Assembly (NCBI GenBank): GCA_945638575.1
Contig: CALZDP010000003.1
Location: 41,429-105,428, forward strand
Source: an uncultured Clostridia bacterium
GTDB lineage: Bacteria; Bacillota; Clostridia; Christensenellales; Borkfalkiaceae
Reading direction: 5' to 3'
Length of the DNA: 64,000 bases
The notes under the pieces were generated by a model. That model did not search any database. It was not told the DNA's origin and saw nothing but the letters and a program-made list of their open reading frames with translations. A program made the position numbers and the translations under genes. Shown piece after piece: positions 23,408 to 26,817 of the stretch (position 1 is the first letter of the stretch; each line of letters begins with the position of its first letter).

Positions 23408-23801
23408 AGTTATATACCTAATAAATATTACCACATTACTGCCGATAAAGTCAATATCTAAAAGGATTTTTTTTATTTTTTTGTTCCATTTTTGCAAGGT
23501 TTTATCATTTTTAGGCGGAAATTTACCTCTTTTTGACTTATAAGTCCGTCATAAACAGGCTTTTTGCTTTAAAAAACTAAATAGTAACCTTACCTCGCCG
23601 ATTATTATCCCGTTTATTTTAGCGGTAAAATACTTTAAAAAATTTTCCCTCTTAAAAGTAGTAATGCAATTTTGCTATTCTGCTATTTGTGCGCGGTAAG
23701 CGATTTTAACCCCTTTACAAAACAAAAAGGCATCTTTAAATAACAGCGGCGATCAGTACGCTTAAATGGTAAATAAAACCTAAAAATACCTTTAAAATTA
23801 T

Positions 23802-23814
23802 CGAACATTTGTTT
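23802..23814 (+). promoter_or_regulatory. LexA/SOS-box-like site 1
   Basis: CGAACATTTGTTT resembles the Gram-positive LexA box (CGAACnnnnGTTCG-like); overlaps the -35. Confidence 0.8.
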
Positions 23815-23842
23815 GACAATATACCGCCGTAAAGGGTATAAT
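23813..23842 (+). promoter_or_regulatory. Sigma-A promoter for the rSAM/DUF4130 operon
   Basis: TTGACA - 18 bp - TATAAT. Confidence 0.8.
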
Positions 23843-23847
23843 ATTAT

Positions 23848-23860
23848 CGAACATTTGTTT
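23848..23860 (+). promoter_or_regulatory. LexA/SOS-box-like site 2
   Basis: Second identical CGAACATTTGTTT, just downstream of the -10. Confidence 0.8.
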
Positions 23861-23874
23861 TAAGCGGAGTAACA

Positions 23875-25125
23875 ATGATTGACAAAGAAAGACTGAAAAT
23901 TTTAACCGAAAGCGCAAAATACGACGTGTCTTGTTCTTCATCGGGGTCGGCGCGCAAAAACAACGGCGGTGTGGGAAACGCAAGTTACGGCGGAATCTGC
24001 CATTCCTTTACACAGGACGGGCGGTGCATATCCCTTTTGAAAATTCTTATGTCCAACAAATGCTCTTACGACTGTCTGTACTGCGTAAACAGGTATTCAA
24101 ACGATATTCCGAGAGCCTCTGCAACGCCGGACGAAATTTGCGAACTTACCATGGAATTTTACAAGCGCAACTATATAGAAGGCTTGTTTTTATCGTCGGC
24201 GGTGGAAGGTTCGCCCGACAGGACTATGGAACTTATGTTGGAAACGGTTATCAAACTAAGAAAGGTTTACGGCTTTTACGGATATATCCACCTAAAGGGC
24301 ATCCCCGGTGCGGATAAAATTTTACTTGACCGCGCAGGAAGTTACGTTGACAGAATGAGTTATAATATAGAACTGCCTTCCGAAAAAAGCCTTAAACTTT
24401 TAGCGCCACAAAAAAGCAAAAAATCCATTTTAGTGCCTATGGCGAACACGGCGGAAGAATACATTATCGCAAGAAAGGAAAAAAATCACCGCTTTTTGCC
24501 TGCGGGACAAACCACCCAAATGATAATAGGCGCTTCGCCCGAAACGGACGGACAGATAATTAGGCTTACCGAAGGGCTTTATGATAAATTTCAGTTAAAA
24601 CGGGTATACTATTCTTCGTACGTGCCGACAAACAGTAAAACCGCCCTGCTTCCGCAAGATCCCGTAGGGCTTTTAAGAGAGCACAGGCTTTATCAAGCCG
24701 ATTGGCTTTTGCGTTTTTACGGTTTTAAAGCGGAAGAACTTATCGATAAAGATGAAAATTTGGACCCGACCGTTGACCCTAAATGCAGTTGGGCGCTGAA
24801 AAACATTCACCTTTTCCCCGTAGAAGTCAACACCGCTTCGCCCGAAATGCTTTTGCGCGTTCCTGGGATAGGTTTTAAAAGCGCAAGCAAAATAGTCGCG
24901 GCAAGAAGGTACGCCAAACTTGATTTTTGCGACCTAATTAAAATGCGAGTGGCTTTAAAGCGCGCCGTTCACTTTATCACCTGCGACGGAAAATTCGGCG
25001 GACAGGAAAAACCTACGGCGATAAAAAACCTTATTGCGCTATCCGAAAGGGCGGATACTTTTGAACAGATGAGCATGTTTTCAAACGGAGAAATTTCCTT
25101 TTCCGTTTTGGGTGGAGAGTTATGA
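23875..25125 (+). CDS. Putative DNA modification/repair radical SAM protein (rSAM-link-UDG type)
   Basis: CSYDCLYCVNR (CxxxCxxC) near the N-terminus, C-terminal HhH VNTASPEMLLRVPGIGFKSASKIVAARR; paired with a DUF4130 gene. Confidence 0.88.
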   Translation: MIDKERLKILTESAKYDVSCSSSGSARKNNGGVGNASYGGICHSFTQDGRCISLLKILMSNKCSYDCLYCVNRYSNDIPRASATPDEICELTMEFYKRNYIEGLFLSSAVEGSPDRTMELMLETVIKLRKVYGFYGYIHLKGIPGADKILLDRAGSYVDRMSYNIELPSEKSLKLLAPQKSKKSILVPMANTAEEYIIARKEKNHRFLPAGQTTQMIIGASPETDGQIIRLTEGLYDKFQLKRVYYSSYVPTNSKTALLPQDPVGLLREHRLYQADWLLRFYGFKAEELIDKDENLDPTVDPKCSWALKNIHLFPVEVNTASPEMLLRVPGIGFKSASKIVAARRYAKLDFCDLIKMRVALKRAVHFITCDGKFGGQEKPTAIKNLIALSERADTFEQMSMFSNGEISFSVLGGEL

Positions 25126-25940
25126 TTGCCTATAAAATCAGCAAAGAAAAGGACGCGATTTTTTGCGCTTTATTTGAAAGTTTTACTTTAAAAGAAAGAC
25201 CTATCGCAGTATTTTCGGGCGCCTTTCAACCTTCCTTCGATTGTCAGGTTAAAACAATAAATTACATCAAAAATAACGCCGAAAGAGTGAAGAAAGGTAT
25301 AATAAAATGTGGGGGTATAAGCCTGTTATCGACGCTTTTTTATGTAATGCGGTCTTCTGACGACCTTATGGAAAGCATAGTCTTTTCGGTTGCCCATAAA
25401 TGCCTGTCTGCAAGAAAAAACTTAACCGATAATTACAGCGATCCCGATATGCTGGCGTTTTACGAGTTGAAAACAAAAATCTCGCACGAGGTCCATATTA
25501 TGACCGGTTTTGTAAGATTTGAAAAAACCTTAAGCGGAGTATGGTATTCCCATATAACGCCCGATAACGACATAGTTGACCTTATCGCACCGCATTTTAA
25601 AAAAAGGTTACCAAACGAAAAATTTATACTGCACGATACAAAACGTAACATTTTAACCGCTTACGACGGTAAAAACCTTATTACCCTTAAAAGCGATAAG
25701 CCCGTAACCGTCTATCTTGACAAGGACGAAATAGAATTTCAAAATCTGTGGCAGACCTATTTCGACTATGCGCCCGTATTTGAGCGAAAAAACTTACGCC
25801 AACAGGCAAATTTCCTGCCCCATAGATACCGCCGTAATATGAGCGAGTTTTTAGGCACACTTGAAAGCGAAATCGCTTGCGCACCGCAAGTTTCAGACTT
25901 AAACGGTTTATATAAACCAGACGTTACGGACGACGACTGA
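25122..25940 (+). CDS. DUF4130 / TIGR03915-type probable DNA metabolism protein, partner of the radical SAM gene
   Basis: Overlaps the upstream stop (TTATGA); MTGFVRFEKTLSGVWYSHITPDNDIVDLIAPHFKKRLPNEKFILHDTKR is typical of the family. Confidence 0.85.
   Translation: MIAYKISKEKDAIFCALFESFTLKERPIAVFSGAFQPSFDCQVKTINYIKNNAERVKKGIIKCGGISLLSTLFYVMRSSDDLMESIVFSVAHKCLSARKNLTDNYSDPDMLAFYELKTKISHEVHIMTGFVRFEKTLSGVWYSHITPDNDIVDLIAPHFKKRLPNEKFILHDTKRNILTAYDGKNLITLKSDKPVTVYLDKDEIEFQNLWQTYFDYAPVFERKNLRQQANFLPHRYRRNMSEFLGTLESEIACAPQVSDLNGLYKPDVTDDD
25304..25330 (+). repeat. CTATARG element (inside DUF4130 gene, degenerate)
   Basis: AAAATGTGGGGGTATAAGCCTGTTATC. Confidence 0.45.
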
Positions 25941-25992: not shown

Positions 25993-26817
25993 TTAGATAA
26001 ACGATTCGCGTTTTGCATAAAAAAGATACTGCTGAATAATGCCTGAATTTTCCTTAAAAAGGTCTAAAAAGTACCTGCTTATTTTTGTGCGGTCGGTTAA
26101 CTTTCCGTCAAAATCTTCACGGTAAATTTTTTCTATCCAAGTATCGACGGGGAAACTGTCTCCGCGCCCGAACCCGAAAAGGGTTACGCAGTTAGCCACT
26201 TTATCGCCAACCCCTTTTATTTTAAGAAGTTGCTTTCGTAAATCTTCGGTGGAAAGGGTGGAAAGGTAATCTAAATCCAACTGCTTATCGACGATTTTTT
26301 GTGCGGTTTCCTTTATGTATTCCGCCCTATAACCAAGCCCTGCTCCCCTTAAAAGGGAAATATCCGCCTCCGCAAAAGCCTGCGCCGAAGGAAATGCGTA
26401 ATAGGTTTGATTTTCAAACGTGAAAGGCGCGCCTAAAGAGGCGCAAAGTTTTTCTATAGTAGACTTAATGCGCGGTATGTTGTTGTTTTGAGAAACTATA
26501 AAAGAAAATAAAGCCTCTTCCCTATCCTGACGTAAAATGCGAATACCCGAATATTTTTCGGCAACGTCCAAAACCTTTTTGATGTTGCAGTTTTGAATAG
26601 TTTTAAGAATGCTTCCGTAATCCTTTTCAAGGTCAAAATAGCCCTTAAAATAATCTTCGTCGTCGCTTTTAACATAGGCTTTGCCGTCAAAGTTAAAAAC
26701 TTTTGCAATCTTGTCTTTGGAAATCACCAAATAGCAGTCGTCCTTTTGAAAAAATCTAAAGACCTGACCGCAGTTTAAGGTATCGTGAAAATTTAAAAAT
26801 TTTTCTACAGTAATCAT
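25993..26817 (-). CDS. OGG1-like 8-oxoguanine DNA glycosylase (HhH-GPD)
   Basis: CGQVFRFF N-terminal region; KIKGVGDKVANCVTLFGFGRGDSFPVDTWIEKI HhH-GPD with catalytic Asp. Confidence 0.9.
   Translation of the reverse strand: MITVEKFLNFHDTLNCGQVFRFFQKDDCYLVISKDKIAKVFNFDGKAYVKSDDEDYFKGYFDLEKDYGSILKTIQNCNIKKVLDVAEKYSGIRILRQDREEALFSFIVSQNNNIPRIKSTIEKLCASLGAPFTFENQTYYAFPSAQAFAEADISLLRGAGLGYRAEYIKETAQKIVDKQLDLDYLSTLSTEDLRKQLLKIKGVGDKVANCVTLFGFGRGDSFPVDTWIEKIYREDFDGKLTDRTKISRYFLDLFKENSGIIQQYLFYAKRESFI

Follow-up and report, generated by a model that had tools for sequence, protein, structure and literature searches.

Paired LexA-like boxes at the predicted SOS promoter of a radical SAM–DUF4130 gene pair in an uncultured Clostridia bacterium

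The gene pair and its promoter

The window, the whole 64,000-nucleotide stretch analysed here, contains two adjacent genes encoding a radical SAM protein and a DUF4130 protein, preceded by a promoter that carries two predicted LexA boxes. The features of the locus are as follows:

23793..23814, + strand: 22-nt direct repeat, copy 1, containing box 1 (copy 2 is 23839-23860)
23802..23815, + strand: LexA box 1 (predicted), CGAACATTTGTTTG, overlapping the -35 hexamer
23813..23818, + strand: -35 hexamer TTGACA
23837..23842, + strand: -10 hexamer TATAAT, with an 18-bp spacer to the -35
23848..23860, + strand: LexA box 2 (predicted), CGAACATTTGTTT, over the expected transcription start
23875..25125, + strand: radical SAM protein with C-terminal helix-hairpin-helix (HhH), TIGR03916 rSAM_link_UDG, 416 aa (576 bits, cut-off 343.5)
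25122..25940, + strand: DUF4130 / TIGR03915 putative DNA repair protein, 272 aa (TIGR03915 180 bits, cut-off 112; DUF4130 139 bits)

A preliminary description of this DNA had reported two identical 13-mers spaced by 46 bp, one overlapping TTGACA and the other closely trailing TATAAT. Both are present as described. On the + strand, the 13-mer CGAACATTTGTTT occupies 23802-23814 and recurs at 23848-23860, a start-to-start distance of 46 bp. The promoter is of the sigma-70 type, its -35 and -10 hexamers matching consensus at 12 of 12 bases. Box 1 starts 10 nt 5' of the -35, a register also seen in most orthologous promoters, and shares its final bases with that hexamer; box 2 starts five bases past the -10. 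As is expected of LexA operators, the boxes thus overlap the promoter. These are the only exact copies of CGAACATTTGTTT within the window; genome-wide, GAACATTTGTT occurs four times, and two of the occurrences are boxes 1 and 2. With up to two mismatches allowed, CGAACATTTGTTT shows no enrichment across the window (5 sites against 5.5 expected); what stands out is the exact pair and its placement. Each 13-mer forms the 3' part of one copy of the 22-nt direct repeat; the two copies, TAAAATTATCGAACATTTGTTT and TAATATTATCGAACATTTGTTT, are identical at 21 of 22 bases. Box 2 is without the palindrome's last G and has the lower score, 17.9 bits against 22.5 bits for box 1. The middle four bases of the boxes are ATTT in the window and AAAT in the upstream region of a related locus, L068, and are identical within each promoter. 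Boxes that are alike within a promoter and unlike between species hint at local copying or joint evolution of both operators.

The identification of the two genes as rSAM-link-UDG and DUF4130, also made in the preliminary description, holds, as both TIGR03916 and TIGR03915 score above cut-off. We take COG4277 to be the same radical SAM/HhH family as TIGR03916. In the radical SAM protein, the cysteines of the CxxxCxxC cluster motif (C63, C67 and C70) are invariant across 34 orthologues, and an HHH_3 domain lies at residues 316-345. A search of this protein against Pfam and NCBIfam at E 0.001 gave no spore photoproduct lyase (SplB) model, and its structural model resembles general radical SAM folds only. 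The partner protein matches DUF4130/TIGR03915 solely, with no UDG domain (COG1573/TIGR03914), and neither protein of the pair is matched in the phage and defence libraries. The model of the DUF4130 protein is confident (pLDDT 89). Against the PDB it returned nothing at E 0.001, and a search for sequence relatives of solved structure was also negative. Its best weak structural matches include several DHH-family phosphoesterases or relatives, at E 0.004 or worse and a TM-score of about 0.3, which is a lead only. An ATGA overlap joins the radical SAM gene to the DUF4130 gene and probably couples their translation; the same -4 offset is seen in 60 of the 73 relatives in which a next gene was called. 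By tblastn, DUF4130 is matched in 80 of 81 loci, the window being among the 81.

An OGG-like gene at 25993-26817 is convergent to the pair. The adjacency to an OGG-like glycosylase noted in the preliminary description is real in the window, but its inclusion in the system does not stand. Of the 81 loci, only two, those of the window and of its nearest relative, have the gene next to the pair, and no LexA box lies upstream of it. On these grounds a functional link with the pair was rejected, and the gene is not to be counted with the system.

LexA and its operator in this genome

The genome, 97% complete at 1.67 Mb in 65 contigs, was examined by patterns and targeted loci. It encodes a single LexA (TIGR00498, 199 bits against a cut-off of 111). 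In an alignment with solved LexA proteins, its VTA-G cleavage site, its serine and its lysine all fall in line with their counterparts. By this alignment, the protein is a canonical LexA of the self-cleaving type. Two weaker LexA-type domain hits, considered as candidates for a second paralogue, read as HrcA and signal peptidase.

It had been proposed to identify the LexA motif of this lineage from its lexA and uvr promoters, and the motif found is RAAC-N4-GTTY. The genome's own lexA promoter contains AGAACGAATGTTTGACA, and its box, GAACGAATGTTTGACA, covers the -35, in a register shared with box 1; the lexA operator as compared for regulon membership is GAACGAATGTTTG. Within the genus, every lexA promoter found has the box (5/5). 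Across the order, an exact RAAC-N4-GTTY is present in 21 of 29 lexA loci, with several of the others ending at a contig edge or showing a near match. Directly past the -10 of uvrB lies GAATATATGTTCG, one mismatch from the box.

The regulon is not of the textbook type, because no recognisable LexA box was found for recA (at the left edge of the window, positions 1-1000) or for the genes upstream of it, cinA, pgsA and rimO. It may be that recA lies outside the SOS regulon in this genome. Loose patterns show no genome-wide excess: CGAACN4GTTYG with one mismatch did not exceed its reversed-pattern control, and GAACN4GTTTG gave 24 sites against 24 in the control. Counts alone therefore cannot give the size of the regulon. 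The specificity of the box derives from position and conservation.

Conservation and arrangement of the boxes

The preliminary description had also suggested scanning the orthologous promoters, and the box is there at each taxonomic level. In the genus, one or more boxes are present in the promoter of each of the seven radical SAM genes. For the order, one genome per species was scanned and the best 80 loci were kept, 78 of which have enough upstream sequence. RAAC-N4-GTTY occurs within 160 bp of the start in 76 of these 78 loci, with 2.1 expected from dinucleotide shuffles, and two boxes occur in 20, with 0.02 expected; because the loci are related and not independent trials, these counts show conservation and the shuffles set the background only. 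As controls, windows inside the radical SAM gene had the pattern in 2 of 400 cases, and the regions upstream of other genes in the same order-level loci had it in 2 of 154. In the phylum sample, the box is present in 21 of 29 upstream regions with sequence (0.5 expected), so that an exact box is missing from about a quarter of the phylum-level orthologues; several of the others have near matches.

Promoters were called by a simple consensus in the 78 order-level loci and the window. By this count the box is at the -35 only in 35, past the -10 only in 24, at both in 19 and absent from one, and no promoter has boxes solely at some other position. The spacing of two-box promoters is variable, mostly 40 to 50 bp. 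Helical phasing is thus not conserved, and two separate blocking sites fit better than a fixed looped complex. Mapped onto a phylogeny of the radical SAM protein, the arrangement labels require 9 changes, and shuffled labels require 36. Two-box promoters cluster phylogenetically and make up 17 of the 26 in the window's clade. The nearest relative, L065, has the -35 box only, and a sister group of three has the downstream box only. Based on this pattern of labels on the tree, two operators may be ancestral in the window's clade, with either one then lost.

Discussion

The promoter at 23802-23860 is, very probably, a LexA-repressed SOS promoter with two operators, from which the gene pair would be induced by DNA damage. 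LexA-type control of the pair, as the preliminary description had claimed, is supported by two observations: the one LexA of the genome has this box at the promoter of its own gene, and the box is retained before orthologues. Neither of the outcomes named in that description as refuting the claim, a different LexA motif in this lineage or boxes missing before orthologues, was observed. Two LexA boxes in the window, together with a near-universal box before the pair in relatives, suggest that the pair is almost certainly damage-induced. In an undamaged cell, LexA dimers on box 1 at the -35 and on box 2 at the start point would exclude RNA polymerase. Upon DNA damage, a RecA-ssDNA filament would bring about LexA self-cleavage and the operators would be vacated, allowing a two-gene message to be made for the radical SAM/HhH protein, a putative DNA-repair enzyme, and for its DUF4130 partner. 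That repression would be tight is a reasonable guess from the two operators. Given the predicted SOS control and the HhH domain, the likeliest role of the pair is a DNA-lesion repair reaction.

Other explanations of the boxes were considered. They could be the operators of a different repressor, LexA-like or phage-type, with the same half-sites. GAAC/GTTC half-sites serve some mobile-element repressors too, and contig C28 has two such sites beside a relaxase/HTH region. However, the genome has one LexA-type protein, the remaining hits being HrcA and signal peptidase, and the same box stands in the same register in the lexA promoter itself and recurs genus- and order-wide, which makes a different repressor very improbable. 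The similarity could also be due to chance, or be a by-product of the TTGACA context and a local 22-nt duplication. Both copies do sit in the 22-nt repeat, and RAAC-N4-GTTY is not over-represented window-wide (10 found, 11.9 expected). Nevertheless, the comparative counts refute this explanation, to which we give practically no weight: the orthologous promoters have a box, and two boxes, far more often than the shuffles predict, other genes in the same loci rarely have the box, and 24 orthologous promoters have it away from the -35.

A closer question is whether both operators matter. LexA might control the pair through one box, with the second redundant or decaying. Single-box relatives are common, with either the -35 or the downstream box, the closest relative retains the -35 box alone, and box 2 is the lower-scoring copy without the last G. 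We regard this as a serious possibility, though we lean against it. The copies are identical over the core in the window and most of the window's clade is two-box, suggesting that both boxes are maintained. Beyond LexA control through two operators, a broader proposal can be offered tentatively, and we think it somewhat unlikely: the pair might be one of few core LexA targets in this uncultured clade, under an old two-operator promoter, with recA having left the regulon and a reduced SOS response centred on radical-SAM DNA repair.

The idea that the pair is under SOS control was predicted earlier, and our finding extends that prediction and does not originate it. LexA control of CAC3343-CAC3344 in Clostridium acetobutylicum, apparently the same pair as that of the window, was predicted in 2013 from footprinting and expression; the accessible part of that report deals with one species and one operon and does not describe a two-operator layout or clade-wide conservation (PMC3828012). 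What is added here is that the box is conserved clade-wide and that the operators come in three arrangements; neither point was found described in the literature reviewed.

Related systems share part of this organization. SOS regulation of a COG1573-COG4277 operon has been described in Bacteroidetes and, in earlier work, in Verrucomicrobia and Alphaproteobacteria (PMC8565304). As in the window, a partner supplies the repair domain and control is by LexA, although in the window this control is predicted. In contrast, the partner in that operon is a uracil-DNA glycosylase, whereas that of the window is DUF4130 alone without a UDG domain, and the LexA motifs of those phyla differ from the window's. 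DUF4130 has also been tied by gene neighbourhood to SplB-like radical SAM proteins and UDGs (PMC3765255). SplB, which is SOS-regulated in several groups (PMC3323433, PMC8565304), is likewise a radical SAM enzyme that repairs DNA and is controlled by LexA; for the window protein, repair and LexA control are both predicted. However, the window protein is of a different family, matching no SplB model and having a C-terminal HhH.

The boxes have the same half-sites, spacing and near-promoter position as the GAAC-N4-GTTY operators of clostridial and Bacillus LexA, and lexA is autoregulated in those systems, as its own box predicts here. LexA of C. difficile binds GAAC-N4-GTTT/C operators in vitro, and GAACAAATGTTTG is part of the recA operator employed in that work (PMC4234289). 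In the window, by contrast, recA has no visible box, and the accessible part of the C. difficile list does not include a pair of the window's type (PMC4234289).

A box before nearly all orthologues of the order, and before most of those sampled from the phylum, would tie this enzyme pair firmly to DNA damage. Such a tie would narrow the search for a substrate to damage-induced DNA lesions and offer simple inducing conditions.

Elsewhere in the genome, a perfect palindrome, GAACATATGTTC (L169, G000:C11:14330), is intergenic and lies about 175 bp 5' of a 146-aa ORF without an NCBIfam match; it is a possible further LexA target. The two sites on contig C28, GAACGAACGTTC and GAACAAATGTTC (L172 and L173, G000:C28:1969 and 2088), have a relaxase-like gene on one side and a small HTH gene on the other, suggesting that LexA, or a repressor sharing its half-sites, may be used by a mobile element.
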